This document shows, piece by piece, positions 11,302 to 49,963 of a stretch of 64,000 nucleotides of DNA. Positions within the stretch are counted from its first letter, which is position 1. Each line of letters starts with the position of its first letter. Source of the stretch: Arcobacter defluvii (lineage in GTDB: Bacteria > Campylobacterota > Campylobacteria > Campylobacterales > Arcobacteraceae); the NCBI RefSeq assembly GCF_013201725.1, contig NZ_CP053835.1:2728001-2792000 (forward strand). The letters run 5' to 3'. The position numbers and the translations under genes were made by a program. The notes below the pieces were generated by a model that was not told where the DNA came from, ran no database searches, and saw only the letters and a list, made by a program, of their open reading frames with translations.

Positions 11302-12249
11302 TTATTTAGCTCTTTTTTTATCATATAAGAACTCTAAAATTGTTGAAACTGCTCTAGTATATGGAGCATCGAAACCTTGTTTTTCACAGTTTTTAATAAC
11401 GACTCCACAAATATCTTCAAGTTCTAAATCTCTATTTTTTTCTAAATCAATTAACATTGAAGGTTTTATTGATTCAAAATTTGTCATTAGTTCAAACATC
11501 TTATTTACATTCTCTTTTGGGATATTAACTCCTGCAGTTTTTGAAGCAAGTGCTGTTTCACTCATAAGCCCATAAATTAGTTTTGAAACTTTTTTATCAT
11601 TTATTAACCTTCCTGTTTTTTCACCTAAAAGTGCACAAATTGCATTTACACCATTATTAATGATAAGTTTATTCCAAAGTTCGAGTTTTATATTTTGACT
11701 TAAAAATGTAGTTGTATCAGTTTTATCAAGCTCTTTTTTTAGATTTTCTAAAAACTCTTGATTTTGTTTTGTTGGGTACATTGCTCCTAAAATAGTTTGA
11801 ACTTCTCCTGTTGATTCCACATGTCCTAAAGTAATTGTATGAGCTGCAATTAGTCTTGTTAATCCACCAATTACATACTCTTTATTATAATGTTCACACA
11901 TAATATCTTCATTTTCAACACCATTTTGCAAAGAGATAAAATATGGAATTTCTTTTTTATTTTTTATCCATTCTTCCAACTTCAAAGAAATATTTTCTGT
12001 ACTCATAGATTTTGTTGCCAAAAAAATAATATCTATATCTTTTGGATTTAATTGTAGAAGTTCTTCTATACTTAAAGCTTCGATTTTTTCATTTAAACTA
12101 AATGTTGAATGTGTTAATTTTATTTTATTCTCTTTTAAATATTCAAGATTTTTACCACGAGCTACAAATTTTACATTATGACCTAATCTATGAAATAATA
12201 CTCCATAAAATACTCCAACTCCACCAGCACCTATTACAACTATATTCAT
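11302..12249 (-). CDS. panE: 2-dehydropantoate 2-reductase
   Basis: A 315-residue NADPH-dependent enzyme of pantothenate synthesis. It has the N-terminal Rossmann motif VVIGAGGVGVFYG (about residues 4-16), ATKSMSTENISL, the SLQNGVENE block near residue 105, and the catalytic lysine region KLELWNKLIINNGVNAICAL near residue 190. The C-terminal helical domain carries SMLIDLEKNRDLELEDICG. Length is normal. It begins 81 bp from the divergent maf gene. Confidence 0.9.
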   Translation of the reverse strand: MNIVVIGAGGVGVFYGVLFHRLGHNVKFVARGKNLEYLKENKIKLTHSTFSLNEKIEALSIEELLQLNPKDIDIIFLATKSMSTENISLKLEEWIKNKKEIPYFISLQNGVENEDIMCEHYNKEYVIGGLTRLIAAHTITLGHVESTGEVQTILGAMYPTKQNQEFLENLKKELDKTDTTTFLSQNIKLELWNKLIINNGVNAICALLGEKTGRLINDKKVSKLIYGLMSETALASKTAGVNIPKENVNKMFELMTNFESIKPSMLIDLEKNRDLELEDICGVVIKNCEKQGFDAPYTRAVSTILEFLYDKKRAK

Positions 12250-12330
12250 TTTTGTTTTCCTAAATTGTATTAATATTTTAAAAATTTATTATATTCAAAT
12301 TGAGTATAATCCAAATAAAAAAGGATTATT

Positions 12331-12876
12331 TTGATAAGACTTGGCTCAAATTCACCAACTCGTGCACTTATTTTAAAAAATTTTGGAATTGATTTTATTC
12401 AAAATGGTGGAGATTTTGATGAAGATTCAATCAAAACAACAAATCCAAAATCATTTTGTTATGAAGCAACTTTAGGAAAATTCAAAGAACTTTATAAAAA
12501 GTATGGTGTTGAAGATATGCCTCTTTTAGTTGCAGATAGTGTTGTTACTTGTGAAGGAAAACTTTTAAGAAAAGCAAAAGATTATGATGATGCTAAAGCT
12601 ATGCTTGAACTTCAAAGTGAAAATAAAACTTCAGTTATTACTTGTATGATTTATAAATCAAAAGAAAAAGAGGTAATTAACCTTTCAATTACAACTTATC
12701 AATTTTCAGAATTTAATAAAGAAGATATGGAAGAGTATTTAAATAGTGGTGAATGTTTTGGAAAAGCTGGAGCAATCATGGTTGAAGGTTTTTGTAAACC
12801 TTATATAAAAAGTGTAAATGGATACGAAAGTACGGCTATGGGATTATGTGTTGAGAAATTGAAAATATTTTTATAA
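12331..12876 (+). CDS. maf: Maf-family nucleotide pyrophosphatase
   Basis: A 181-residue protein starting at a TTG preceded by AAAAGGA. The N-terminal RLGSNSPTRALIL matches the phosphate-binding SxSPRR region of Maf in a variant form. VADSVVTCEGKLLRKAKDYDDAKAML matches the family's ADTVV...LGKP.d..dA..ML block, and CFGKAGAIMVEG corresponds to the DKAGaY.iqG block. Maf proteins hydrolyse non-canonical nucleoside triphosphates and can affect division. The SNSPTRA and FGKAG departures from consensus are worth noting. Confidence 0.85.
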   Translation: MIRLGSNSPTRALILKNFGIDFIQNGGDFDEDSIKTTNPKSFCYEATLGKFKELYKKYGVEDMPLLVADSVVTCEGKLLRKAKDYDDAKAMLELQSENKTSVITCMIYKSKEKEVINLSITTYQFSEFNKEDMEEYLNSGECFGKAGAIMVEGFCKPYIKSVNGYESTAMGLCVEKLKIFL

Positions 12877-12901
12877 TTTAAGAGGAATAATCCTCTTAAA
12901 T
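12876..12901. terminator. Bidirectional hairpin between maf and the peroxidase gene
   Basis: Perfect 11-bp stem (atttaagagga and its complement) with loop ataa, exactly in the 27-bp gap between two convergent genes. The flanks give A/T tails in both directions. Confidence 0.65.
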
Positions 12902-12903
12902 CT

Positions 12904-13929
12904 TTAGTTGAAAGTTGGTTTTTCAGTTTCTATTGTAGATTCTGGAAGTTGTGGATATATTATTTCTGGTTTATCACCTTTTAATGATTTTAAGAATGTT
13001 ACAATTTTTTGAGCATCAGCATCAGAAATTTTAATACCTAATTGAACAGAACCCATCTCTTTTACTGCTTCATTCAATGACCATATTTGTCCATTATGAA
13101 AATATGGTGCTGTCTCTGTTATATTTCTTAATGTTGGTGTTTTTACCATTCCATTTGCATCACCTTTAAAATCCCCTACATTCATAAATTTATATTTTGC
13201 TGCTACTTGGAATGCTTGCATTGTTCCACCTAATGCTATTCCTGTATGACATGCTGTACATCCTTTATCAATAAATGTATTTAATCCTTCTTTTTCTTCT
13301 TTACTTAATGCTTTTTCATCTCCACTTAAGAATTTATCAAATCTTGATGGAGTTACTAATGTCTTCTCAAATGTTGCGATTGTTGCCGTTATTTTTGCAA
13401 AATCTACTTTTACTTCTTTTCCATATGCACCTTTAAACTCTTCCACATATTCTGGTATTGAGTTTATTCTTTGTTCTACTAATGATGGTGGTGCTGCCAT
13501 CTCTGGTCCTGCTTGTACTGGTCCTTGTGCTTGATCTGCTAGGTGTGGGCTTCTTCCATCCCAAAATTGTGCTTTAAAGAACACTGAATTATACACGGTT
13601 GGTGAATTTAAGTGATGTGGATTTGCTGTCCATCCATGTCCTATTGCTGCTGGCACTCCATCTGCTCCACCTAATGCAAGATTATGACATGTATTACATG
13701 ATATCAATCCACTTCTTGATAATCTTGGATCAAAGTACAATTTTTTCCCTAATTCTACTTTCTCTTTTGTTATTGGATCTTTCTTATCATCTATCATTTT
13801 CATTAATTTTGCATTATCTGTTGGTATTGCTTCTAGTCCACTATTCTTCGCTTTTGTTATCAAAGTCTCTGCTGCTAACAATGTACTTGCACCTAATAAA
13901 CAAACTGTTAAAGAAATTGCTAATTTCAT
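12904..13929 (-). CDS. Di-haem cytochrome c peroxidase
   Basis: A 341-residue periplasmic protein with signal peptide MKLAISLTVCLLGASTLLAAE. It has two haem c sites: CNTCH near residue 78 (in LISCNTCHNLALGG) and CTACH near residue 224. These are the high- and low-potential haem motifs of bacterial CcpA/MauG-type peroxidases, with the typical FWDGRSPHLADQAQGP region between them. It reduces hydrogen peroxide with electrons from cytochrome c. The ATG follows a full AGGAGG, so expression may be strong. Confidence 0.93.
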   Translation of the reverse strand: MKLAISLTVCLLGASTLLAAETLITKAKNSGLEAIPTDNAKLMKMIDDKKDPITKEKVELGKKLYFDPRLSRSGLISCNTCHNLALGGADGVPAAIGHGWTANPHHLNSPTVYNSVFFKAQFWDGRSPHLADQAQGPVQAGPEMAAPPSLVEQRINSIPEYVEEFKGAYGKEVKVDFAKITATIATFEKTLVTPSRFDKFLSGDEKALSKEEKEGLNTFIDKGCTACHTGIALGGTMQAFQVAAKYKFMNVGDFKGDANGMVKTPTLRNITETAPYFHNGQIWSLNEAVKEMGSVQLGIKISDADAQKIVTFLKSLKGDKPEIIYPQLPESTIETEKPTFN

Positions 13930-14247
13930 AATAATCCTCCTAAATAAATAATTTTAACTATATGACAATTTTTATTAAATGAAAATTAATTTTATAATAT
14001 TTTAGAATTTTTTTTATAATTTTAACTTATAATTTAAGAGTAAAAATATCCTATTTTAAAGCATTTTAGCTAATAATATAAGATATTTTTTATCCTAAAT
14101 TAATATATTATTCTATAAGTATAATTTATTAATTTTATCTAATAAAGAGAGCTATTATAAAACTAAATTGTAAATTTTTATTATTGAAATCTTTACATAT
14201 GTAAAATTTTTCTTGACATTTTCTTTGAGAGAAGAACTAAATAAATA
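13930..14247. other. Gene-free stretch upstream of the peroxidase gene
   Basis: This 318-bp, very A/T-rich stretch lies between dxs and the peroxidase gene, both on the minus strand. It should hold the end of the dxs transcript and the peroxidase promoter. I see the AGGAGG ribosome binding site next to 13929 and a perfect 14-bp palindrome (tttacatatgtaaa) at 14192-14205 that could be a regulator site. No open frame of note. Confidence 0.5.
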
Positions 14248-16053
14248 TTATTTAATTCTTAAGATAAGTTGCTGTGGTAAAAGTCCTAAACTTTCTTCTA
14301 CTTGTTTTGTGTCACCATGTTCTATAAAGTGATCTTCATATTCAAAAGATGTAACTTGTACATTATGAATATTTTCATCATTTAGTACTTCTAATATCGC
14401 ACTTGAAACTCCACCTTGTTTTTGTGAATCACTAAATACATACCAATCATCATATTCTTTTGAAAGTTCTATTAAAGTCTCTTTATCTATTGGTTTTACA
14501 AATCTTAAATCTAAAATTGATATATCTTCTGCATGCAAAGCTTCTGTTTCAATTGCCCTGCTAACGCCTGCTCCATAACCAATAAATAATTTATTTGAAG
14601 TCCCTTCTTTTAAAAGTTCAGCTTTTCCTAACTCAAATTGAGTTGGTAAATAATTTAACTCTTTAAAATTACCTCTTGGATATCTTATTGCACATGGACT
14701 TTGTAAACTATAAGCAAATTCTAAACCTAATTCTAAAGTTTTATTATCCCTTGGAGCAAACAAAATCATATTTGGAATAAATCTTAAATATGAAATATCA
14801 AAAGCTCCTTGATGAGTTTCTCCATCATTTCCTACAATTCCAGCTCTATCCATTGCAAAAACAACAGGTAAATTCATCAAACAAACATCATGAATAATTT
14901 GATCAAATCCTCTTTGTAAAAACGTTGAATAAATTGTAATATATGGTTTAAATCCCTCTTTTGCCATAGCAGCCATTGAAGTTATTGCATGTTGTTCTGC
15001 AATTGCAACATCCCAAAATCTTTCAGGAAACTTATCCATAAGTTTATTTATTCCTGTACCACTAGGCATTGCAGCAGTTACACCTACAATATTTTCATAT
15101 TTTGAAGCTAAAGCAATCAAAGCATCTGCAAAAACTGCTGTTGCAGATTTTGGAGCAACTTTTTTTACAAATTCTCCATCTTCAATATTAAAAGGTCCTA
15201 CTCCATGCCACTCTTCATGTTGCCCTTCAGCGATTTTATAACCTTTGCCTTTTATTGTATGCGCATGAACAATAACTGGTTTTTGCATTGCTTTTGCAAT
15301 TTGTAAAGTTTCTATAACTTCTTCAATATCATGCCCATCAATAGGACCTATATAATCAAGTCCCATTTCTTCAAATAAAATTCCTGGAGTTATAAGTTTC
15401 ATAGCCTCTTCCATTCTTTTTGCTATGTAAGTTGTACCTTCTGGCATATTATTTCTTATAAATTTATCAACTTTTGTTTTAAAACCTTGATAATATTTCC
15501 CTGCAAGTAGTTTTGAAAGATATTTAGAAATAGCTCCAATTGGTTTTGCAATACTCATTTCATTATCATTTAAGATAATTACTACTGGAAGTTTCAAATC
15601 TCCAAGTTCATTTAATGCTTCATAAACCATTCCAGCTGTCATAGAACCATCACCAATCATTACAATTGGAACTCTATTCTCTTTTTTTAATTTTATTGAT
15701 TTTGCTGCACCAACAGCCAATGAAATAGAAGTTGAGCTATGTCCAGCTACAAAATAATCAGCAGGACTTTCATTTGGTTTTGTAAAACCACTTAATCCAC
15801 CAAATTGCCTAACTGTTTCAAACTCTTCCCAACGTTCTGTTAATAGTTTATGAGGATAACATTGATGAGATACATCAAAAATAAAAGGATCACTATACGC
15901 ATCAAATACATAATGCATACCAAGAGTTAACTCAACTGCACCAAGTGTAGATGAAAAGTGTCCACCCTTTCTTGATACAACATCAATTATTCTTTCTCTA
16001 ATTTCTTGTGAAAGTTCTTTTAACTCTTCTAGTGATTTTTCTTTTATTTCCAT
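14248..16053 (-). CDS. dxs: 1-deoxy-D-xylulose-5-phosphate synthase
   Basis: A 601-residue thiamine-diphosphate enzyme that makes DXP from pyruvate and glyceraldehyde 3-phosphate, the first step of the MEP isoprenoid route. Visible are the SRKGGHFSSTLGAVELTL start, the GHSSTSIS block, the TPP motif GDGSMTAGMVYEALN, HTIKGKGY, and the transketolase-type DRAGIVGNDGETHQGAFD block. Length is normal for the family. hisC lies 12 bp upstream on the same strand. Confidence 0.97.
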   Translation of the reverse strand: MEIKEKSLEELKELSQEIRERIIDVVSRKGGHFSSTLGAVELTLGMHYVFDAYSDPFIFDVSHQCYPHKLLTERWEEFETVRQFGGLSGFTKPNESPADYFVAGHSSTSISLAVGAAKSIKLKKENRVPIVMIGDGSMTAGMVYEALNELGDLKLPVVIILNDNEMSIAKPIGAISKYLSKLLAGKYYQGFKTKVDKFIRNNMPEGTTYIAKRMEEAMKLITPGILFEEMGLDYIGPIDGHDIEEVIETLQIAKAMQKPVIVHAHTIKGKGYKIAEGQHEEWHGVGPFNIEDGEFVKKVAPKSATAVFADALIALASKYENIVGVTAAMPSGTGINKLMDKFPERFWDVAIAEQHAITSMAAMAKEGFKPYITIYSTFLQRGFDQIIHDVCLMNLPVVFAMDRAGIVGNDGETHQGAFDISYLRFIPNMILFAPRDNKTLELGLEFAYSLQSPCAIRYPRGNFKELNYLPTQFELGKAELLKEGTSNKLFIGYGAGVSRAIETEALHAEDISILDLRFVKPIDKETLIELSKEYDDWYVFSDSQKQGGVSSAILEVLNDENIHNVQVTSFEYEDHFIEHGDTKQVEESLGLLPQQLILRIK

Positions 16054-16065
16054 TTCTAATAAACT

Positions 16066-17172
16066 TTATTTTAAATTTTCTAATACTTCGTCTAATTGTT
16101 CAAATACTTTTGTATTTTGCTCATTTCTTCCTATCGTAATTCTAATTGCATTTTGACCATAACCAGTTAAATCTCTTACAATTACTCCTCTTTCTAATAG
16201 TTTTTGAGCTACAACTTTTGATACAAATTTATCTCCCATTTTAATTGTTATAAAATTTGTATAAGAAGGAATATATTCAAATCCTTTTTTTGTTGCATAC
16301 TCTTCATATCTTGTCATTTCTTCGAAGTTTTTAGCAATACAACTTTTTACAAAATCTTCATCTTTTAATGCTTCAATAGCTGCTGCTAATGTTAAAGTTG
16401 TGATATTAAATGGAGCTCTTAATTTATATAAAGTTTGAATAATATCAGCTTGTGCTATACCATAACCAACTCTCATTCCTCCAAGTGCATATGCTTTAGA
16501 AAAAGTTCCTAAATAAATTGCATTTGGAAATTTTGTCATTAAATCTTTTGGCACAATTCTTTTTTTCTCATCTTTAAAAGAAGCATATTCTTGATAAGCT
16601 CCATCTACAACTATTAAAGTTTCAGGACTTACTGTTTGCAAAAATGCATAAACATCATCTTTATCTACACATTCACCTAATGGATTATTTGGGATACATA
16701 AAAAGATCACATCTGCACCATGTTCTTTATATAGTTTTGAAAATTCTTCAAGATTATGTTGTTCTGAATCAGTTTTAATAATAGTTGCACCTGCTTGTTT
16801 TCCATAAATTTCATACATTGCAAAAGTTGTTTTTGCCATTAAAATTTTTGAACCTTTTTGGCATTTTGCGTGAATACAAAATTCTATTATTTGGTCACTT
16901 CCTGAACCAATAATCACATTTTCACTTTCAACTTCAAATTTTTTTGCTAATGCTTCTTTTAATTCAAACATTGAATCATCAGGATATACAAACATATTTT
17001 TTGCAATTTCTTGAATTTTTGCAATTACTTTTGGAGATGTTCCATAAGGATTCTCATTTGATGCAAGTTTGATTACATTTTCAGGTTTTACACCATATTC
17101 TCTAACAACCAATTCTATTGGTTTTCCTGCTTCATAAATTGAAACATTTTCTAATACTTCATTAAATTTCAT
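16066..17172 (-). CDS. hisC: Histidinol-phosphate aminotransferase
   Basis: A 368-residue PLP-dependent class I/II aminotransferase. It has the [13 protein letters not shown]-terminal block, [19 protein letters not shown], and the PLP lysine in [17 protein letters not shown] near residue 225, followed by the C-terminal [10 protein letters not shown] arginine region. It carries out the seventh step of histidine synthesis and, next to pheA, may also act on aromatic keto acids, as HisC-type enzymes do in related bacteria; that is inference. Confidence 0.93.
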
Positions 17173-17189
17173 CTATTTTTCCTAAATTC

Positions 17190-18269
17190 TTAAATATCAT
17201 TTATCTCTTTTACATAAGAGCCTAAAATTTTAACACTACTTTTGTGTTTTTCTAAAACTTTTTTCACATTTTCATCATCTTTATGACCATCAAAATCTAT
17301 AAAAAAGATTGAATTACCTTCAACTATATGTGATTTTATTTTCGTTAGATTAATACCAGCTTCATTAAAATCAGTTAAAAATTCTACTAAAACCCCTTGT
17401 CTATCTGGAAATTTTACTAAAATTGATGTTTTATCATTGCCACTTGGGGCATTTTCAAAATCACTGATTATAAAAAATCTTGTTTTATTATTATCTTTAT
17501 CTTCAATATTTTCAAATAAAATTGGAAGATTATATAATTTGGCACCCACATGAGGACAAATCGCAGCACTTCCTGCTTCAGTCGCAGCTATTTTTGCAGC
17601 TTTAGTTGTTGATTCTATAGGAATCAACTCTGCTTCATCTAAGCCAAAATTTGTTAAAAATCTTCTACATTGATCAAATGCAATATCTTTTGAATAAATT
17701 CTTTTTATATCACTTACCTTATCACAAGTTGAAGCTAATGTATGATGAATATCAAGAACAACTTCTGCAATAATTTTTAAATCATATTTACTAAAGCCAT
17801 TTATCGTGTCATTTACAATTCCATTTGAAGAATTTTCTATTGGAACAACACCAAATTTAACTTTTTTAGTATTTACTTCTCTAAAAACTCCCTTTATAGA
17901 ATTAATAGGAATATAAGAACTCATTGCACCAAACCTAGCTTCAGCTGCTTGATGAGTAAAACTTCCTTCAGGCCCTAAATATCCAATATTTTCTGGTAAT
18001 TCTAAATTTCTTGAGATTGCAAAAATTTCTAAAAAAAGTGCTTCAATAGCATTTTTATTTAATAAACCTTTTTTTGCTTTATTAATTTCTTCTAATCTTT
18101 TTATTATTGCTTTTTCTCTTTCAGGTCGATAAATTGCACCACCACTTTTTGCTTTTAAATTACCAACTCTATGAACAATTTGCATTCTTTCATTTAACAA
18201 ATCTAAAAGTTTATTATCTATTGAATCAAGTTGATTTCTAAGCTCCAATAATCCATCTTCGTTGTTCAT
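17190..18269 (-). CDS. pheA: Chorismate mutase / prephenate dehydratase
   Basis: A 359-residue bifunctional P-protein of phenylalanine synthesis. The N-terminal chorismate mutase domain (about 1-85) has RNQLDSIDNKLLDLLNERM and REKAIIKRLEE. The prephenate dehydratase domain (about 95-270) has GYLGPEGSFTHQAAEARF, VPIENSSNGIV and ESTTKAAKIA. The C-terminal ACT domain (about 275-355) for phenylalanine feedback contains KIKSHIVEGNSIFFIDFDGH. hisC follows after 17 bp and lysA precedes by 10 bp: an amino-acid operon. Confidence 0.96.
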   Translation of the reverse strand: MNNEDGLLELRNQLDSIDNKLLDLLNERMQIVHRVGNLKAKSGGAIYRPEREKAIIKRLEEINKAKKGLLNKNAIEALFLEIFAISRNLELPENIGYLGPEGSFTHQAAEARFGAMSSYIPINSIKGVFREVNTKKVKFGVVPIENSSNGIVNDTINGFSKYDLKIIAEVVLDIHHTLASTCDKVSDIKRIYSKDIAFDQCRRFLTNFGLDEAELIPIESTTKAAKIAATEAGSAAICPHVGAKLYNLPILFENIEDKDNNKTRFFIISDFENAPSGNDKTSILVKFPDRQGVLVEFLTDFNEAGINLTKIKSHIVEGNSIFFIDFDGHKDDENVKKVLEKHKSSVKILGSYVKEINDI

Positions 18270-42362: not shown

Positions 42363-42497
42363 TTAAATCAAATAATGATAAAAAGTTAAATGATTTAATT
42401 TTAAAAAATGGCAGAGAGCAAGGGATTTTCTTTGTAATTCCTCAACAATCCCTAAAATAAGGGTTTCTCTATCATTGGCAGATAATGAAAGTATCAT
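42363..42497 (-). pseudogene. Int(N): start and first 24 codons of the integrase, stranded at attL
   Basis: On the minus strand an ATG at 42497 follows AAGGATTATTT, a good ribosome binding site at 7-nt spacing. The frame reads MILSLSANDRETLILG... and enters the 22-bp att core as SLALCH, then runs 14 codons into host DNA and stops at 42363 (44 residues in all). The same SLALCH phrase, in the same frame, opens the integrase body at 49893. In the excised circle the two halves join into one gene. In the integrated state this is a severed N-terminus. Confidence 0.8.
42406..42427 (+). repeat. attL core (22-bp copy of the tRNA-Ser 3' end)
   Basis: The plus strand reads aaatggcagagagcaa followed by gggatt, identical over 22 bp to 49872-49893, where it is the 3' end of tRNA-Ser. 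Only this piece of the tRNA is present here; the flanks differ. It marks the left junction of the integrated element. Confidence 0.9.
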
Positions 42498-42519
42498 AAA
42501 TAATCCTTAAAGTATCATA
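42490..42519 (+). repeat. Left pair of putative integrase arm sites
   Basis: agtatcata occurs at 42490-42498 and 42511-42519, 21 bp apart (two helical turns), within a 12-bp repeat aaagtatcataa. A matching pair with the same 21-bp spacing lies near the right end. The left pair is 62 bp inside the core and overlaps the start codon and ribosome binding site of the integrase N-terminal fragment. Confidence 0.7.
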
Positions 42520-42595
42520 ACCAGTGTTGGAATTATAGCACCAAAAACTTAAATTGCACTTATCTAGAATTATTCACTTAAAAGAAAGCTTTTAT

Positions 42596-43384
42596 TTAAT
42601 GTGTTTTAAAAACTTTCCATGCAGATATTAGTAATATTACACCTAATAAAATTGATATATATTGTGAATTTATATAGTTTAGTAATAATGAACCTATAAA
42701 TACACCTATAAAAGAGCCTACAATCATAAATGTTAAAAATCTTTTTTCATTCATAATTTGATTAAATTGTTCACTTTTAGAATATCTAAAAAATGCCATT
42801 AACATTGTTGGTAAACTAATACATAAGGAAATACTTCCAGCTAATTTTGGGTCTAATCCAAATAATAAAATTAAAGTTGGAATAATAAATTCTCCACCAG
42901 CAACACCTAACACAGCAGCAATTATACCAATCAAAATTCCAGCTATAATGCCGACTACAAATAATAAAATTTGATTTTCAAAAAGAGGAGTTCCTCCAAC
43001 TAAATAATTATGCCCCAATAACATTGATAATGCCAAAGTAATAAGCATAACAAGTATTATTTTATTTAAAAGATTTTGATTAATTCTCATTGCATAATTA
43101 GCACCAATATAAGCACCAAATAGGCTACCTATTAAAATATTCATAATAATAAAGGAATGAGGAATAATCTCTTCAAATCCAATAGTATTACTTCTAAAAA
43201 ATATTGAAAATATAACAACCACTAAAGATACAATTTTATTAATTATAATTGCACTTAATGTTGTGAATCCAAAAAATCCAACTAAAATTGGAAGTCTAAA
43301 TTCAGCTCCACCTAATCCAATTAATCCACCTAATGTTGCAACACTTCCACCAGTTAGGAAAGAATATAAATTCTTATTTTTCAT
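42596..43384 (-). CDS. TauE/SafE (TSUP) family permease, element cargo
   Basis: A 262-residue membrane protein with about eight helices in two halves. GGLIGLGGAEFRLPIL near residue 18 and AAVLGVAGGEFIIPTLILLFG near residue 156 are the paired signature loops of the TSUP family, which export sulfite, taurine-derived sulfonates or other sulfur anions. The substrate here is unknown. It lies inside the integrated element, between the left att core and the relaxase, so it is the likely accessory trait. An inverted repeat covers its promoter region. Confidence 0.88.
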   Translation of the reverse strand: MKNKNLYSFLTGGSVATLGGLIGLGGAEFRLPILVGFFGFTTLSAIIINKIVSLVVVIFSIFFRSNTIGFEEIIPHSFIIMNILIGSLFGAYIGANYAMRINQNLLNKIILVMLITLALSMLLGHNYLVGGTPLFENQILLFVVGIIAGILIGIIAAVLGVAGGEFIIPTLILLFGLDPKLAGSISLCISLPTMLMAFFRYSKSEQFNQIMNEKRFLTFMIVGSFIGVFIGSLLLNYINSQYISILLGVILLISAWKVFKTH

Positions 43385-43422
43385 TATTTACCTTTAAATA
43401 TATAGTAATTCTATTGTATGCA

Positions 43423-43453
43423 ATATTTATACCTTATTATAAAGTATAAATAT
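43423..43453. promoter_or_regulatory. Inverted repeat upstream of the TSUP gene
   Basis: atatttatac at 43423-43432 pairs with gtataaatat at 43444-43453, 11 bp apart. It begins 39 bp before the TSUP start. On the minus strand a TATAAT lies in the spacer, as if the -10 box were framed by an operator. No regulator gene is adjacent. Confidence 0.5.
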
Positions 43454-43529
43454 ATAAAAAAACGATAACAACTTCCTAAATTATTAAAGGAGCTTATCTT
43501 TTTTCTTTTCGTGTTTAGAGTCCCACTAC

Positions 43530-43589
43530 GACCTGAAGGTCTTTCTACTTGCAGTAGAAGTGGTTTAAGGGTTAAAACCCTTAAAAACC
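43530..43589. other. Cluster of hairpins after the relaxase gene
   Basis: Three inverted repeats stand close together in an unusually G/C-rich patch: gacc/ggtc at 43530-43541, ctact/agtag around 43545-43557, and a 10-bp stem tttaagggtt/aacccttaaa at 43564-43585. On the minus strand they follow the relaxase stop. They could be a compound terminator or a structured origin (oriT or replication origin); the sequence alone does not decide. Confidence 0.5.
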
Positions 43590-43599
43590 CAAAAGAATG

Positions 43600-44958
43600 C
43601 TAAGCTCTCGAAAAGTTAAAAGGTAAGTTGTTATCTTTATCTTCTATTTTCCCAAAATTTTCAAAATTTTTATTAAGATTGTTTTGTAAAATAAAATCTT
43701 TGTATTTGTTATTTTCTTGTTCTATTTCTATAAATTTTGTCTTAAAATCTCCAAAATTCTTTACAAAATTCTCTTGTTGTTCTTTCAAAATTTTGTTTTC
43801 TTTTTCCAATTTTCGATTATCGTTGTCTAATGTTTCAATTACTTTTACAAGTTTTGTTTTATCATTCATTAATTCTTTTTCAAAATTTTTTATGTTGTTA
43901 TAATCCATATTTTGAATGTCGATTTTTTTCATTTTTTCAAATTCAGAAATCAAATCTTTGAAAAGTTCATTTATATTTTCAACTTTAGTAATAGTTTCTT
44001 TTTTTAAAATTCCAAACTCTTCTTTTTTTAAATGTTTTTGTAAAACACTTTTTAAATTACTACTTATAAAACCTCTTTGTTCTTTGTCGTTTTCAAACTC
44101 AATTTTGTTTTTGTCGGCCCTTTCTTTTTCCTCTTGTCTAGCAACATTTAACAAATTTGTTAATTGTTCAAATTCGAACGAATCTCTTTCAAAATTTTGT
44201 CTTAAGTCTTTAATGTCATTTTTTACACTTTTAGCAAGATAATATTCTTCTTTTCTTCTTTTTTGTAATTGTTCCAATTCGATTTTTTGTTTTTGTAAAG
44301 CAAATTCTAATGTTTCCAAATGTTCTTTTTTAGTTATGTTTTTACTAATTCCTCTTTGAAAATCCAATTCAACTTGTTGAAAAGAAATCGCTGCTAAATC
44401 TTGCAAATCTCTAAAATCTTGTTTTGTAAAACTACCCAAGATTGATTTTTCTTTTTCCAGATGATAATTATATGCGATAATATGGTAGTGCAAATTTTTT
44501 TTTGCCTCATTTCCCTCATAGTGCCCCTCATCAAAATGCTCAGAATACATTAAAGTTTTTATTCCATAATTTTCGTTTAAATTCTCAATAAATTTTTCGA
44601 TACCTGTACTTAAATCTATATCATTATCAAGATAATAATTCGATTGTTCTTCAGACAAAGCAACTACAAATTCAATTAAATGATTTTGAAGATAATCTCC
44701 AGAATTTTCTCTTTTACTTATTAGTTGTTGTCTTTGTTCTTCTAATTTATCCAAGTTCTCTTTCACTTGATTAAAACTCTCTAAATTGATGAATTCATCA
44801 CCAATTAAGATTTTTGACCTATTCCCTAGACTATCCTCTTTATTTAATAAATAATCTATCTCTTGACCTTTTTTCAATCTATTTACATTATGCTCATAAA
44901 TTAATTCCAAAAAATTTTTATTAACACCTCGAGAGGTTACAGAACTATAATTTCTCAT
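43600..44958 (-). CDS. Pre/Mob-like relaxase with coiled-coil tail
   Basis: A 452-residue protein. The N-terminal part ends in SEHFDEGHYEGNEAKKNLHYHIIAYNYH (histidines at about 141, 157 and 159), which matches the HxDE...PHxH metal site of MobV-type plasmid mobilization relaxases in a diverged form. Residues about 195-430 are long charged coiled coils. The relaxase would nick one strand at oriT for transfer. It is the last of four overlapping genes (44955-45735) with a ribbon-helix-helix protein first, as in mobilization operons. Confidence 0.65.
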   Translation of the reverse strand: MRNYSSVTSRGVNKNFLELIYEHNVNRLKKGQEIDYLLNKEDSLGNRSKILIGDEFINLESFNQVKENLDKLEEQRQQLISKRENSGDYLQNHLIEFVVALSEEQSNYYLDNDIDLSTGIEKFIENLNENYGIKTLMYSEHFDEGHYEGNEAKKNLHYHIIAYNYHLEKEKSILGSFTKQDFRDLQDLAAISFQQVELDFQRGISKNITKKEHLETLEFALQKQKIELEQLQKRRKEEYYLAKSVKNDIKDLRQNFERDSFEFEQLTNLLNVARQEEKERADKNKIEFENDKEQRGFISSNLKSVLQKHLKKEEFGILKKETITKVENINELFKDLISEFEKMKKIDIQNMDYNNIKNFEKELMNDKTKLVKVIETLDNDNRKLEKENKILKEQQENFVKNFGDFKTKFIEIEQENNKYKDFILQNNLNKNFENFGKIEDKDNNLPFNFSRA

Positions 44959-45305
44959 CTATCAAATCCAAAAGTTTCTTCTTCTATTTCCAAACTTTTT
45001 ACATTGTCATAAGACAATTTTTTCATTTTTTCAATTTGATTTTTAAAGTCGTTTAAATTAATTTCTTCAGCAACTTCAACAACTCTTGTTGTTTCTTCTT
45101 CTTCGATAATTTCGACTTTTTTTCTTCCATTTTTTGTAAATTTAGATTTATCTTCTTTAACTTCTTTTAAAGTTTGTTCAAATGCAGCCAATTCTTTTTT
45201 TAAATGATTGTATAACTTATCAATTTTATTTTGTACTTTTCCAATTTCAACCAAATGACCTTTAAATTCGTCATTAAGTTGTTTTAATGTTTTAAACTTT
45301 TCCAT
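44955..45305 (-). CDS. Coiled-coil accessory protein of the mob operon
   Basis: A 116-residue, highly charged helical protein (KTLKQLNDEFKGHLVEIGKVQNKIDKLYNHLKKEL at the start, EEEETTRVVEVAEEIN later). It overlaps the relaxase by 4 nt and abuts the gene upstream. No family is recognised. The position suggests a relaxase helper of MobC type, but that is inference. Confidence 0.5.
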   Translation of the reverse strand: MEKFKTLKQLNDEFKGHLVEIGKVQNKIDKLYNHLKKELAAFEQTLKEVKEDKSKFTKNGRKKVEIIEEEETTRVVEVAEEINLNDFKNQIEKMKKLSYDNVKSLEIEEETFGFDR

Positions 45306-45550
45306 TAGTAAAACTCCTTGAAATCTTGGTTTTCTTGTTGTTTTTGTTTGTTAAGTTGTTTTTCTATTTCCAGAATAATTTTCTCATTTTCGATATTTTG
45401 AGATTTTTTTCTATCTTGATAATCTTCGAAATCTTCTTTATCTTTTTTTAAAAGTTCTTTTGCTTTTGCCAATAAAATTTTTTGTACTTCTTCTCTATTT
45501 TTTCCATTTTTTAACATTGTGTAAATTTCTAATAAAATTGATACTATCAT
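45305..45550 (-). CDS. Small charged protein of the mob operon
   Basis: An 81-residue protein with a short hydrophobic start (MIVSILLEIYTML) and a Lys/Glu-rich helical rest (KAKELLKKDKEDFEDYQDRKKSQ). It touches the downstream gene by one base and overlaps the ribbon-helix-helix gene by 4 nt. Function not recognised. Confidence 0.5.
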   Translation of the reverse strand: MIVSILLEIYTMLKNGKNREEVQKILLAKAKELLKKDKEDFEDYQDRKKSQNIENEKIILEIEKQLNKQKQQENQDFKEFY

Positions 45551-45735
45551 TTAACACCACCTTCAAAATTTTCAATTCTCAACATTTTCATTTTTTGTTT
45601 TAAAGTTAAACTTTCATAATGTTTTTTAACTATTTCATTAACTAAATTTGATTTATTTCTACACTCAATTTTAGATAACTGCTCCAAAAAGTTTACGACA
45701 CTTAATTCTAAATTCACACTTATAACTTTTCTCAT
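45547..45735 (-). CDS. Ribbon-helix-helix DNA-binding protein
   Basis: A 62-residue protein. KVISVNLELSVVNFLEQLSKIECRNKSNLVNEIVKKHYES has the strand, helix, turn, helix layout of the CopG/MetJ/Arc family. First in the mob operon, it may bind oriT or the operon's own promoter in the gap upstream, like the accessory proteins of plasmid relaxases. Confidence 0.65.
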   Translation of the reverse strand: MRKVISVNLELSVVNFLEQLSKIECRNKSNLVNEIVKKHYESLTLKQKMKMLRIENFEGGVK

Positions 45736-46003
45736 TTTAGACCTTTATTTTTTTAGTGTTGATTTTTTAAACTTTATGTTAAAGATAACCAACAAACTTT
45801 ATAATTTATGGAATGATAAGAACGACTTTGATACTTTATAAGGAGTATATGTTGTTGTATTCTATTTATAGAAACGACAAGATAGACGAGTTAGAAATAT
45901 TAAAGCAACGATGAATTATCATTATTTAATTTGGGAATAAGTTTTTAATCTTTTTCCTATATCATTTAATTATAATAAGAAATTTTATTTTTATTAATTT
46001 TTA
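45736..46003. other. Gap between the mob operon and the replication gene
   Basis: A 268-bp region that should hold the mob promoter and perhaps oriT. It has a plus-strand mini-ORF at 45849-45914 (21 residues, MLLYSIYRNDKI...) with AGGAG just upstream. aacgac occurs twice, in aagaacgac near 45828 and gaaacgac near 45871. No clear nic-site consensus was recognised. Confidence 0.4.
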
Positions 46004-47362
46004 TTAACTTTTGATAGGAAATTTTCTCTTTTCTTTAATTTCCCAACAAAAAGTTTTTAATTTGTTCTCTTTTTTAGTTAAATTTGTAACCAAATATTCT
46101 TCTTTGTCATATTTCAAAAGTGTTGTTGTGTCTATATGTTCAAAAATTTTTAAATCAATAACTCTATAAGAGCTAACATTTTTCACGCAGTTATGTAATG
46201 TAAATTCTAAATCTTTGAAAAATGTTTTGAAGTTAAAATCATCAATAAAATTTTTTACATAAAATTCATTAATAACTTTTAAAAATTTTCTATTTGTTCC
46301 AAATCGATTAAATGTAAATAAATCAAATTTACCTGTATTCAAAAAGCAATTATCAAAATCGTTTTTCTTAGCACACTTCCAAAAATCATTTTTTAAATAA
46401 TCAACATAATCTTTTACTAAGTCTAACTCTTTTTTGTCTTTCGTTTGTACTCTCTCTTTTTTTACTTCAATCGAATATTTTGGACTTTCTACAATATGAT
46501 TTTTGATTTTTACTTCTTTAGTCGTTTTGCATTTTGTTGTTATTTTAATATTACATTCGTTCAAAATCTTAACAATAGGATTTTCTTTCAAATCTTTAGT
46601 TATTGATGTGTTATTCTTAATTTTTTTATATAAAAATCTCTCTAATCCATTAAGAATAGAACAAGTAAAAATTCTAATTTTATGAGATTTTTTCCAACCA
46701 TTAAAAACCCTAAATTTCTCACAATCTTCCACATTTGTATTTTTTCTAATGTATTTCAAAAGATAAGAACTAGAACGACTTAAATCTTTTATTTCTTCGA
46801 TTTCGAAAGATTTTCCCAGAGAATTTTTCTTAATTGTGTTTTTAATATGTTGAATTAAATTCTCTTTAAATTCACTTTTTACATATAGAATACTATGAAG
46901 ATGAGGAGTAAAATTTTTATGAGGTTCGAATACTTTTGAATAATATACTTTTTTAAATTCTCTATTAACTCTAAAATTTTTGTAAATATCTCTAAAACTT
47001 GAATTTAATAATTTGTATCCAGATTCGATTGTATTATTTTCGTCAAATTTAGGATTATATCTCTTAGTCGTTTTACTAAATTTGTGATAACTACTTGGTA
47101 AAGTTAATGTTAAAAATAGAGTTGAATATCCTTTTTCTTCGATGATTTTATTTTCCAAAATCTTTTGATTGTACATAAACCAATAATAATCATCTTTTCT
47201 AAATTTAGCTTCGTTATGTTCAAAACTAATTAAATCTTTTTGACCCATTTTTTCAACAATTAGAAAATTATTAAGAAAACGATTTATATCAATTTCTTTT
47301 TTAATAGAAAAATTTTTATATTCAATATTTTTAGTTTTTACATATCTCTCAAATTTAGTCAT
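46004..47362 (-). CDS. GPA-type HUH replication initiator
   Basis: The ATG at 47362 with AAGG six bases upstream is chosen. The 452-residue protein has rolling-circle motif 1 as FLTLTLPSSYH (about 83-93), the HUH motif as EPHKNFTPHLHSILYV (HLH near residue 155), and a two-tyrosine motif 3 as SYLLKYIRK. Y-x-x-K-Y is the phage phiX174 gpA and P2 gpA layout. It would nick its origin and start single-strand replication. The presence of two HUH proteins (this and the relaxase) separates replication and transfer roles. Confidence 0.8.
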   Translation of the reverse strand: MTKFERYVKTKNIEYKNFSIKKEIDINRFLNNFLIVEKMGQKDLISFEHNEAKFRKDDYYWFMYNQKILENKIIEEKGYSTLFLTLTLPSSYHKFSKTTKRYNPKFDENNTIESGYKLLNSSFRDIYKNFRVNREFKKVYYSKVFEPHKNFTPHLHSILYVKSEFKENLIQHIKNTIKKNSLGKSFEIEEIKDLSRSSSYLLKYIRKNTNVEDCEKFRVFNGWKKSHKIRIFTCSILNGLERFLYKKIKNNTSITKDLKENPIVKILNECNIKITTKCKTTKEVKIKNHIVESPKYSIEVKKERVQTKDKKELDLVKDYVDYLKNDFWKCAKKNDFDNCFLNTGKFDLFTFNRFGTNRKFLKVINEFYVKNFIDDFNFKTFFKDLEFTLHNCVKNVSSYRVIDLKIFEHIDTTTLLKYDKEEYLVTNLTKKENKLKTFCWEIKEKRKFPIKS

Positions 47363-47368
47363 CAACAA

Positions 47369-47914
47369 CCTTTTTATTATTGATTCTTAATTATAAGTTA
47401 TATTTTTATTTTTAATAATTTTATTAATTTTTAATAGATGAATTTAATTATTTTAGATTATTTTTATATATTTAATTAATTTTTTAGTTAGATTTATTTG
47501 TTAGACACTTTTTTTATATAGAGTCAAGCAATCTCTAAAACTGCCATTTTAGAGATTGATAAAAAAAGCTTTAACATACTTTTTAAATTAAATTTAATTG
47601 AGTAAAATAAAGATGTTGTGTTGTTTGGTTATGTAAATATAGATAGTCTTAATTTGAAATTGAACTAATATTATTTATATTTTGTTTAAAATGTATTATT
47701 CATTAAAGAATTATATATTGGAAATATGAATCACAAATATGCTTAAATAAAACTTAAATGTTAAGCTATATTTCAGTTGTTTTATTATATAATTGCATTT
47801 AATTAAATATATCCAACTATATTTAAAGTTCTTTTTACATAATAGACTTTACTTTTTAAATAAAAGTATTTAACAATAAGATTATATATACAAAAAACAC
47901 AGGAACTATAAAAG
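47369..47914. other. Long A/T-rich gap upstream of the replication gene, with a strong hairpin
   Basis: This 546-bp stretch is extremely A/T-rich and holds no good open frame. Its one clear structure is a perfect 12-bp stem at 47529-47558 (caatctctaaaa and its complement, loop ctgcca), about 165 bp upstream of the replication gene. It should hold the promoters of the divergent genes and is a candidate replication origin. Confidence 0.5.
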
Positions 47915-48421
47915 ATGAAAAGCATAAACATAAAAGATTGTATATCACAACAAAGAAAAGAATATTTGATAAAATTGAATTATCAAATTGAAATAAATAA
48001 AAAACTATTACCAGAATTAATTGATTTATCTTCAAATGAAGTTGAAAAATTAATTCATACTACTAATAATAAAGATTTTATTAACAGATTAATTCTAAGC
48101 AATGATCAAGAACATTTAGTAAAACTATTAAAAAATCAAAATCTTACTAAAACCATACTAATTAAATTATATAACATATTTGAATCACTAGATAAAAAAT
48201 ATATGTATCAATATTATTTTTTACTTAATAAAAATACTCCATTATCAATTTTAAAATTAATTTTTAATTCTAATATATCTATGGGAGTAGGAACTAATAA
48301 ATATTTAGAATATTTTATTTGTCATCCTAAAACTACAACTTCTTTTTTAAAACAAATTTATAAAAAATATCCAAAAGAATTTTTAAAAGATTTATTAACA
48401 TCAAAAAATATATATCTATAA
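47915..48421 (+). CDS. Unknown helical protein, only plus-strand gene in the element
   Basis: A 168-residue protein (MKSINIKDCISQQRKEYLIKL) with no membrane helix or catalytic motif. It is rich in Leu, Ile, Lys and Asn in short helices, with loose repeats such as FINRLILSNDQEHLVKLL and ILIKLYNIFESL, like an alpha-helical repeat fold. AGGAAC lies about 12 nt upstream. It sits between the replication gene and the integrase in opposite orientation, typical of a cargo, defence or regulatory gene. No function can be given. Confidence 0.6.
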   Translation: MKSINIKDCISQQRKEYLIKLNYQIEINKKLLPELIDLSSNEVEKLIHTTNNKDFINRLILSNDQEHLVKLLKNQNLTKTILIKLYNIFESLDKKYMYQYYFLLNKNTPLSILKLIFNSNISMGVGTNKYLEYFICHPKTTTSFLKQIYKKYPKEFLKDLLTSKNIYL

Positions 48422-48470
48422 TTAATGACATTGATTTCAATAAGCCTATAAAATAATTAATTATATTTCT

Positions 48471-48584
48471 TTAACAAAAAAAAATTTTATTCTTTAAAAC
48501 TACCAAAAATGGAATATCAACCTTTTTAGATTGTTCTTCCATTTTTCTTAGTGTTTTCTTATTTATCTTTGGTGGTTTTGACAT
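48471..48584 (-). CDS. Small basic protein after the integrase
   Basis: A 37-residue frame (MSKPPKINKKTLRKMEEQSKK...) starts 14 bp after the integrase stop on the same strand, with an AGG just upstream. It is basic at the N-terminus, with a hydrophobic end. It could be an excisionase-like helper or a chance frame. Confidence 0.4.
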   Translation of the reverse strand: MSKPPKINKKTLRKMEEQSKKVDIPFLVVLKNKIFFC

Positions 48585-48598
48585 ACCTAATAGCTCTT

Positions 48599-49893
48599 TT
48601 AGATAATAGAAATGCTATCTATAACCTCTTTTTTAACTTTTGTACTAAAACCTTTACCATAAATATTTAAAGTTAGTTTTTTATCATCATTTTTTGAATG
48701 TCCTACTATTTCTTGTATTAATTCCACTTTGTCTGGGTGTTGATTAATTAATTGACTAACAAAATTAGCTCTAAATGTATGTAATGATTTTGTACTATCT
48801 TTATCAATAACCATATATAATTGTTTTAACATTTCTTTATTAAAAGCATTATCAGTTTTAATTGATAATGGAAAATCTAACCCTAAAACCATATCTAAAA
48901 TGTCTTTGTGAATTGGTATTTTTCTAACACCAGTTTCAGTTTTTGATTCTTTTAAATCAAAACAATAGATTTCATCATCTTGGATAATATCTTCTTTTTT
49001 AATACTCCATAGTTCACTAATTCTCATTCCAGTATGTGCAAGAATTTTTAGTATATTCTTATGATATGAACTATAATCATAGTTAAAAATATTTTCTAAA
49101 TCTTTTTTAGTAAAGTTTTCTTTTTTCTTAGTTTCTTCTTTGATAGATACCATTTTAGAACAATTTTCACTTATTAATTTTTTAGATAGTGCGAAATCTA
49201 GGAACTTACTAACATAAATCATATTGTTATTAATAGTTTTTGGGTTTAAACCTTTGTTTTTTAAATGTGTTCTAAAATCTTGAAAATCATCATTGCTTAA
49301 ATTATTAATATTAGTATCTTTAAAATAGTTTTTAAGCTTATCAAAAGTGGTAGCATAGGCTTTATAACTTGCTTGACTAACACTTCTATTAGTTTGTTCT
49401 TTTAATGTCTTTAAAGAGTCTATAAATTGTAATTCTAATAGTGCAAATGTTATATGTTCTTTTTTATCTCTACTATTTGTTAGAGCTTCATCAACTTTTG
49501 TATATTGTTTCTCTAGTGCTATAATTTCTTGATGTGTAGCAGTTGTAATAGCTAATTGTTCTCTTAATTCTTCAATAGTGTCATATTCAAAGATATAACT
49601 ATAATCACCTAGTGTTAGTGTGTACAAAAAATCTTCCTTACTCATAATATCAAATAATTTTTTTCTTTGTAAACAAGTTTTTAAATTATTTGTGTGAAGT
49701 GATATTCTATACAATTTATTATTAATTTTTCTTCTGTAATAAAAAGTTTCATTTACTTTGTAAATTCTTTTAGTATCATAAGTTTTATCAAAAGTATCAT
49801 AGAGCAATTTTTTTTGTTTGCCAAAAGACTTTGAAGCTTGATTTTTAGGGGATTGTTTGTCATTTGTAGGTAAATGGCAGAGAGCAAGGGATT
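48599..49893 (-). CDS. int: Int(C): tyrosine integrase body, no start of its own
   Basis: About 430 residues from the att core onward. An N-terminal arm-binding-like domain (FYYRRKINNKLYRISLHTNNLKTC), a core-binding SAM-like domain (TFDKLKNYFKDTNINNLSNDDFQDF), and a catalytic domain with TGMRISELW (Arg I), LHTFRANFVSQL (HxxR), VGHSKND and the nucleophile in LTLNIYGKG. There is no ATG between the core and the arm-binding domain. The frame is open upstream through tRNA-Ser and tRNA-Leu, but that is tRNA sequence. The true start is the fragment at 42497. Confidence 0.85.
49771..49800 (+). repeat. Right pair of putative integrase arm sites
   Basis: agtatcata occurs at 49771-49779 and 49792-49800, 21 bp apart and 71 bp inside the right core. 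Same sequence, same orientation on the plus strand and same spacing as the left pair. They lie in the integrase coding sequence, where they encode the repeated Tyr-Asp-Thr seven codons apart. Confidence 0.7.
49872..49893 (+). repeat. attR core within tRNA-Ser
   Basis: The second copy of the 22-bp repeat. It covers the last 19 nt of tRNA-Ser, including half of the T arm and CCA, plus 3 nt beyond. The tRNA remains intact. Confidence 0.9.
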
Positions 49894-49963
49894 CGAACCC
49901 TCGGAGGCGTGAACCTCGCCGGTTTTCAAAACCGGTACAATCGACCAACTCTGTCAACTCTCT
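49875..49963 (-). tRNA. tRNA-Ser (UGA)
   Basis: An 89-nt class II tRNA. Acceptor agagagt pairs gctctct with one G-U pair, discriminator G, encoded CCA at 49877-49875. The anticodon loop tttgaaa between ccggt and accgg gives UGA. The long variable arm fits serine. It is the integration target of the element and is kept whole by the repeat. Confidence 0.95.

Follow-up and report, generated by a model that had tools for sequence, protein, structure and literature searches.

A putative integrative and mobilizable element of Arcobacter defluvii that pairs a GPA-family replication initiator with a MOBV-like relaxase

The window—the whole 64,000-nucleotide stretch analysed, from a host chromosome of 3,021,240 bp—contains an island of 7,466 bp (42406–49871), sharply bounded by a 22-bp direct repeat of the 3′ end of a tRNA-Ser gene. 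Exact copies of the 22-mer, AAATGGCAGAGAGCAAGGGATT, start at 42406 and 49872, the right copy being the 3′ end of tRNA-Ser itself. GC content of the island is low (0.19–0.25 per 2 kb), and its genes run on the minus strand in the order int, [a 168-aa ORF on the plus strand], rep, a ribbon-helix-helix (RHH) gene, ORFs of 81 and 116 aa, the relaxase gene and a TauE gene. The features are as follows.

42406–42427, unstranded: attL core, 22-bp direct repeat, matching 49872–49893 exactly and present as a single copy in the relative G010
42596–43384, minus: TauE/SafE-family anion exporter gene (Pfam PF01925, 6e-30), between the att repeats
43521–43585, minus: candidate oriT, three hairpins and then GT-AGTGGG, predicted nick between 43522 and 43521
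43600–44958, minus: MOBV-like relaxase, predicted N-terminal HUH domain (residues ~1–210) and long coiled-coil tail, from an AlphaFold2 model, VIA comparison and conserved residues
44955–45305, minus: 116-aa coiled-coil protein, recovered (E 2.3e-5) with a profile built on the small ORFs next to five other relaxases
45305–45550, minus: 81-aa small ORF of the mob operon, assigned by position only (the 72-aa family profile did not recover it)
45547–45735, minus: 62-aa Arc-like (ribbon-helix-helix) putative DNA-binding protein (PHROG 3431, Arc-like repressor, 5.6e-4)
46004–47368, minus: GPA-family two-tyrosine HUH replication initiator (Rep), 454 aa, TTG start, from profiles, motifs and predicted core
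47500–47558, minus: candidate double-strand origin (dso), 12-bp-stem hairpin, CTTG^A and AAAAGTGTCTAAC, predicted nick between 47525 and 47524
47915–48421, plus: 168-aa protein, an ORF with no Pfam match and weak PHROG and NCBIfam matches
48599–49882, minus: tyrosine integrase, start codon uncertain (Pfam Phage_integrase 1e-11; PHROG 1, integrase, 3.1e-32)
49872–49893, unstranded: attR core at the 3′ end of the intact tRNA-Ser gene (49875–49963, minus)

An empty site was found in the relative G010, where one copy of the core lies in an uninterrupted tRNA-Cys/tRNA-Ser region that reads straight through, with 98.8% identity over 162 bp to the window's left flank through the core. The att repeats and this empty site together define an element of 7,466 bp which therefore encloses the TauE/SafE gene, probably as cargo. 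At the tRNA-Ser loci of relatives from the same genus (own locus excluded; genome G007 gave no locus), tRNA-Cys lay less than 100 bp from tRNA-Ser in 27/29 cases, the two exceptions (L079 and L089) showing no tRNA-Cys within the stretch examined. An integrase with direct-repeat att sites at a specific target is what is expected of an integrative and mobilizable element (IME), as are the relaxase that it encodes and the lack of T4SS genes among the 8 ORFs scanned against Pfam. A preliminary description of this DNA had placed the initiator in a non-phage element, which was borne out; the precise limits set by the att copies, and the TauE gene lying between them, had escaped it. Elsewhere, in G018, an inovirus-like prophage (L038:1727–10590) sits beside ilvD, a neighbour of the same tRNA-Ser/Leu cluster.

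Rep matched Pfam Phage_GPA (PF05840, E 1.6e-13, 50.8 bits against a cut-off of 31.4), a second Pfam family, REP_ORF2-G2P (PF23343, 4.5e-7), and PHROG 91, ‘nicking at origin of replication’ (2.5e-15); NCBIfam gave no match at E≤1. The protein carries the motifs FLTLTLP (residues 85–91), HLH (156–158) and YLLKY (202–206), within which F85, T87, T89, H156, H158, Y202, K205 and Y206 were invariant in 5/5 aligned Arcobacteraceae Reps; the same residues were also invariant in 8/8 rows of an alignment that included six viral-contig proteins, which we read as P2-like gpA. Identity was 28% over 38% of the query to CTXphi RstA and 23.6–23.9% to P2-like replication proteins, and tblastn of Rep against plasmids gave nothing at 1e-5.

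The AlphaFold2 model of Rep had a low mean pLDDT (51.4), with 10-residue blocks from 61 to 200 scoring 61–90 and forming a strand-helix-strand-strand-helix core. Foldseek rows 1–17 were all HUH domains (AAV Rep and one wheat dwarf virus Rep, probability 0.94–1.00), with a best E of 1.2e-3 and none ≤1e-3, TM by query ≤0.20, and unrelated enzymes from rank 18. On VIA re-alignment the top match was SIRV1 ORF119, which we take to be an HUH Rep (Z 8.3, rmsd 3.6, 114 aligned residues), followed by ferredoxin-like folds at Z≤7.5, and AAV Rep was absent among the 50 matches listed. A sequence search of solved structures with the Rep alignment recovered no relaxase or Rep. Profile and motifs thus assign the protein to the Phage_GPA two-tyrosine HUH Reps, with a moderate match for the predicted fold; the preliminary description was right to name a phiX174/P2 gpA-like initiator.

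phiX174 gpA cuts CTTG^A. Upstream of rep in the window, a hairpin of 12 bp leads straight into CTTGACTCTATATAAA-AAAAGTGTCTAAC, and L030, an integrated element of genome G081 in which Rep and relaxase also stand side by side, has hairpin-CTTGATTATCTTAAAC-AAAAGTGTCTAAC at a distance from rep equal to the window's within 2–7 bases. A hairpin-CTTGA followed by A-rich sequence and AGT is present too in L031, the inovirus-like L123 and the contig-end L127, the spacer of L031 being one base too long for the search pattern applied to all loci. That pattern matched five times (window, L030, L053, L123 and L127) in 34 loci, two of them overlapping, of 618,094 bases, against 1 match per 6,000,000 bases of Markov sequence. 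CTTGATA is reported to be a conserved nick site of Rep_1-type dso regions (PMC10378824). Two results count against the IME reading: the search pattern had no match at 21/26 Rep ORF loci and at others scanned, and a dso-like motif is present as well in L053, where the relaxase is not accompanied by any recognised GPA Rep. Within L053, a 237-aa ORF with an HAH motif (11871–12584) lies beside the relaxase, near a 16-bp hairpin-CTTGA site (12837, minus), and is possibly an unrecognised HUH Rep.

The separate relaxase claimed in the preliminary description lies at 43600–44958. Its AlphaFold2 model had a mean pLDDT near 52; by VIA its six best matches among solved structures were all MobM (Z 10.7–12.0, rmsd 3.8–4.5, 167–180 aligned residues), after which unrelated glutamate dehydrogenase rows (Z 9.1–7.8) were mixed with the relaxases TraI, TrwC and MobA. 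H23, H141, D143, E144, H157 and R202-G203 were invariant in 9/9 aligned relaxases, three of which are encoded on plasmids (2.8, 3.4 and 15.9 kb), and these histidine and acid residues are presumably equivalent to those of MobM. The second histidine of the HxH motif, H159, was kept in 5/5 close relatives and is Q in 3/9 proteins (L054, L055 and L110), which counts against the IME reading; so does the lack of any match to Pfam Mob_Pre at E≤1, the Pfam hallmark of MOBV. Mob_Pre was approached only by the p21S protein, a distant relative (5.3e-5, just under cut-off), and sequence searches of solved structures with the relaxase alignment and with the p21S protein found no relaxase or Rep. We call the relaxase diverged, MOBV-like by its predicted MobM-like fold and histidine active site, and not a member of Pfam Mob_Pre.

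Upstream of the relaxase, the 116-aa coiled-coil protein is a probable mobilization accessory protein on profile evidence, profiles of 72-aa and 138-aa accessory proteins recovered no window ORF, and the 62-aa protein also gave a MazE-family match (3.4e-4) far below cut-off. The relaxase family was present in 10/104 genomes of the bacterial family, some matches being weak or with stops. Its profile found no relative among viral contigs and matched only two of the genome contigs (G023 and G081), and all four plasmid records found with relatives (4/4) were typed ‘non-mobilizable’; L110, L111 and L112 are such relatives on plasmids classed non-mobilizable by PLSDB. This suggests that the island points to a MOBV-like relaxase family, with relatives on plasmids, that has been overlooked by Pfam and current plasmid typing.

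Replication genes beside this relaxase family varied: a GPA Rep in the window and L030, a Rep_3 in L055 (PF01051, 2.5e-28), and no recognised Rep alongside in L051, L052, L053 and L054. Neighbour genes of 216 and 189–194 aa are common to L030 and L054, of which only L030 has the Rep. Varied Reps beside common relaxase and neighbour genes therefore make it seem that replication modules have been exchanged on a conserved mobilization backbone. As further observations, two ORFs of L054 (11684–12751) read as pilin-like, no other T4SS genes being seen in that relaxase element, and L055:4547–9888 (G003) combines an integrase-like ORF, a Rep_3 initiator and a relaxase-like protein in an IME-like module.

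The candidate oriT lies on the strand of the relaxase gene, immediately beyond its stop codon on the 3′ side. Three hairpins followed by AGTGGG occur also in L051 (another relaxase element of the same genome) and L052 (G023), their second and third stems differing in sequence, and a related layout is seen in L030 and L054, where hairpins precede TTTAGTGAGCTA; in L053 TTTAGTGAGCTA is in the opposite orientation with no perfect hairpin, and L055 has no core. The window, L051 and L052 have 8 nt between hairpin end and predicted nick, as in pMV158, whose inverted repeat stops 8 nt short of the nick (PMC5863519). A perfect hairpin (stem ≥4) with AGTGRG was found 3′ of the relaxase in 5/7 elements (window, L030, L051, L052 and L054; not L053 or L055), compared with 1/164 other ORF 3′ regions (core alone, 11/164) and with 4–15 hits among 1000 shuffles of each of the six regions other than L055; L054 has an additional antisense match. 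Folding of the region as ssDNA gave z scores of −3.3 (window), −3.4 (L051) and −5.1 (L052), and the covariation term of the consensus fold was unfavourable (+3.2 kcal/mol; an alignment of three sequences with gaps in stems). MobM cuts GTGTG/TT, and GTGCG/T is predicted for MobSag (PMC5090054, in part); a looser inverted repeat-plus-GTGNG pattern was met in 53/300 shuffles of the element, which is not significant and counts against the IME reading. The site is a candidate only, because the choice of the AGTGRG core drew in part on the tested regions, L051 is closely related to L052, and the looser pattern lacks significance. By analogy, the same hairpins may alternatively be a single-strand origin, which lies 3′ of the relaxase in IMESag-rpsI (PMC5090054, in part). 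As a known RNA the array was rejected, Rfam at E≤1 matching only a piece of tRNA-Cys.

With two nickases present, the GPA Rep could be the one that initiates transfer, the MOBV-like protein merely resolving or recombining plasmids (a Pre function). IMEs from streptococci whose sole relaxase is of RCR type have been described (PMC5704250, PMC5357655), and virion-less relatives of the island pair Rep with an FtsK-like ATPase in place of a relaxase. However, the MobM-like relaxase comes with an accessory ORF and a conserved oriT-like site of its own, and L051, L052, L054 and L055 are relaxase elements that lack a GPA Rep, so that we think a transfer role for Rep unlikely.

Relatives of Rep (E≤1e-3) were present in 27/104 genomes of the family, own genome counted. 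Among 29 Rep loci examined with wider flanks, 26 had a Rep ORF, and by their neighbours these comprised 2 with the relaxase, 5 with an FtsK-like ATPase, 11 with a Zot or secretin homologue (inovirus-like), 6 with a small protein related to the 94-aa one of L036, L115, which is likewise and cut by a contig end, and L120, which is of another kind; the three without a Rep ORF were L129, with Zot and secretin homologues, and L118 and L127, without any marker. In a 30-row tree the window Rep was sister to that of L030 (96/87) within an 8-row clade (100/100) of 5 FtsK-type, 2 relaxase-type and 1 other locus, with all 11 inovirus-like Reps outside it. Window, L031 and L120 are on long branches in this tree, the window row having an unusual letter make-up, and the tie to L031, whose Rep is partial, is weak (93/81).

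The FtsK-type loci form a group of their own. L032:6782–11347 and L033:8870–10000 (own genome, G000:C1 ~2.246 and 1.577 Mb), L031, L034 and L035 carry a GPA Rep with an FtsK/SpoIIIE-like ATPase (that of L032 matching PF01580, 2.3e-8), an 87–108-aa protein (possibly ssDNA-binding) and integrases nearby, with no virion genes seen, an apparently AICE-like layout in Campylobacterota. L032 also contains six tandem, very similar ORFs of 317–320 aa, lipoprotein-like in appearance (11937–17736). The island itself was rejected as an FtsK-type element, no FtsK match being found among its ORFs.

Adjacency of Rep and relaxase was limited to 2/104 family genomes, and no excisionase was identified in the element; both count against the IME reading and might indicate a decayed, immobile island. 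Against this, the annotated ORFs are open and the catalytic motifs and att cores intact, and we consider such decay very unlikely.

No virion genes were found, as the preliminary description had observed: structural phage families gave no convincing PHROG match for 7/8 element proteins (TauE left out), weak tail matches being confined to the coiled-coil ORF (E 0.16 and 0.76), and gaps between element genes held only ORFs of 26–42 aa, among them a hydrophobic one of 42 aa (47803–47931, minus); three other ORFs run antisense within genes. Searched for Zot, the same genome gave one partial match, just above cut-off, in a 787-aa ATPase which we read as HerA-like, not Zot. RS1 is a satellite of CTXphi, and the island could be a filamentous-phage satellite of this kind (RS1/TLC), its Rep-made single-stranded circles packaged by a helper inovirus; the Rep family includes CTXphi RstA and the Reps of 11 inovirus-like loci of the bacterial family, and the inovirus-like L123 shares the hairpin-CTTGA origin design. 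Yet the island has a relaxase, an accessory ORF and a candidate oriT, its Rep belongs to a clade of virion-less elements, and the only Zot match in the genome is not Zot-like, which makes a filamentous-phage satellite quite unlikely. With a GPA Rep and an origin of a design shared with at least one inovirus of the family, and with a relaxase, the circle might spread both in phage particles, packaged as ssDNA by a co-infecting Arcobacteraceae inovirus, and by a T4SS through the MOBV-like relaxase, a dual route that we regard as highly improbable. A satellite or prophage remnant was rejected as improbable on the lack of structural genes among the proteins scanned, the virion-less Rep clade and the conjugative module, nothing in the results favouring packaging by an inovirus; the ‘plasmid-phage hybrid satellite’ of the preliminary description likewise finds no support, because the clade that holds Rep is one of virion-less elements and leaves the inovirus-like Reps outside, and the module linked to Rep is conjugative.

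Two loci with a coupling protein (PF02534) were found in the same genome, equal in score and with surrounding ORFs that look alike. One of them comprised, by Pfam, VirB2, B3/B4, B6, B8, B9, B10, B11, VirD4 and a NikA-like protein. In the chromosome the two look-alike conjugative T4SS regions (L064–L066) lie at G000:C1 1.241–1.279 and 1.838–1.857 Mb and provide a candidate helper for the island, the NikA-like protein of the resident element counting against its serving the island.

We consider it probable that the island is an IME, resembling in its workings a pMV158-type mobilizable RCR plasmid that has become integrated and carries a GPA-family Rep. What sequence provides directly are the boundaries, the relative's empty site, the HUH motifs of both nickases, the conserved candidate origins and the T4SS genes. 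As an IME, the island would be released as a circle by its tyrosine integrase, through recombination between the two 22-bp att copies at tRNA-Ser; Rep would use its YLLKY tyrosines to nick the minus strand at the hairpin-CTTG^A site that precedes rep, and the rolling-circle replication so driven would keep or amplify the excised circle. The MOBV-like relaxase, with its small accessory proteins, would nick the same strand at the oriT that follows the relaxase gene on its 3′ side. The resulting complex of relaxase and DNA would pass to the VirD4 coupling protein and T4SS of another, conjugative element in the same cell, and the circle would re-integrate after transfer.

The result would be a compact IME with a phage-type RCR initiator and its predicted nick alongside a separate relaxase and its predicted oriT, and replication and transfer should therefore be separable by two deletions. 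More broadly, one bacterial family harbours related GPA Reps in inoviruses, FtsK-type elements and putative IMEs. The field's review gives its section on the upkeep of excised IMEs the title ‘An Unexplored World’; the IME replication proteins named in the available part of that 2017 review are Rep_3, replisome organizers/DnaC, RepA/RepC and Rep_Trans, not Phage_GPA, and the same part states that none of the Proteobacteria IMEs described carried its own canonical relaxase in the absence of coupling or mating-pore proteins (PMC5704250). Exchange of inovirus Reps with plasmids is already known (PMC6668415, in part), as are phiX174-like initiators in non-phage integrative elements, from RepSA of the actinomycete ICE pSAM2 and its phiX174-like RCR motifs (PMC3218068, in part). 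In the literature searched, most subscription papers lying outside it, we noticed neither the pairing of a GPA Rep with a MOBV-like relaxase in an IME of Campylobacterota nor any other IME that combines a Phage_GPA Rep and a MOBV relaxase.

Compared with known systems, the island shares with CTXphi RstA and P2 gpA the Rep superfamily, FxTLT, HxH and YxxKY being conserved with gpA-like proteins, and differs from P2 and the RstA/RS1 satellite in that no virion gene was found. AICEs such as pSAM2 move double-stranded DNA by an FtsK-like protein, whereas the island has a relaxase and no FtsK. IMEs with a MOBV relaxase (IMESag-rpsI, Tn4451 and Tn5520) likewise combine an integration module with that relaxase and lack a coupling protein or T4SS (available parts of PMC5704250 and PMC5090054). 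The G081 element (Arcobacter sp. CECT 8985, L030/L068) also has an adjacent GPA Rep (39–42%) and relaxase (28–30%), an integrase and a dso-like motif with an identical 13-nt sequence, but is integrated at the 3′ end of a radical-SAM gene, with extra genes of 216 and 189 aa and another oriT-like subtype. Functionally, the closest known system by analogy is pMV158 (RepB and MobM), with a separate RCR HUH Rep and MOBV relaxase, distinct dso and oriT, an inverted repeat 8 nt before the oriT nick and a GTGNG nick core (PMC5863519 and PMC5090054, in part). Unlike pMV158, which has a Rep_2 initiator, the island has a GPA-family Rep and a relaxase outside Pfam Mob_Pre, its candidate oriT lies 3′ rather than 5′ of the relaxase gene, and it is integrated by a tyrosine recombinase at a tRNA in a Gram-negative host.
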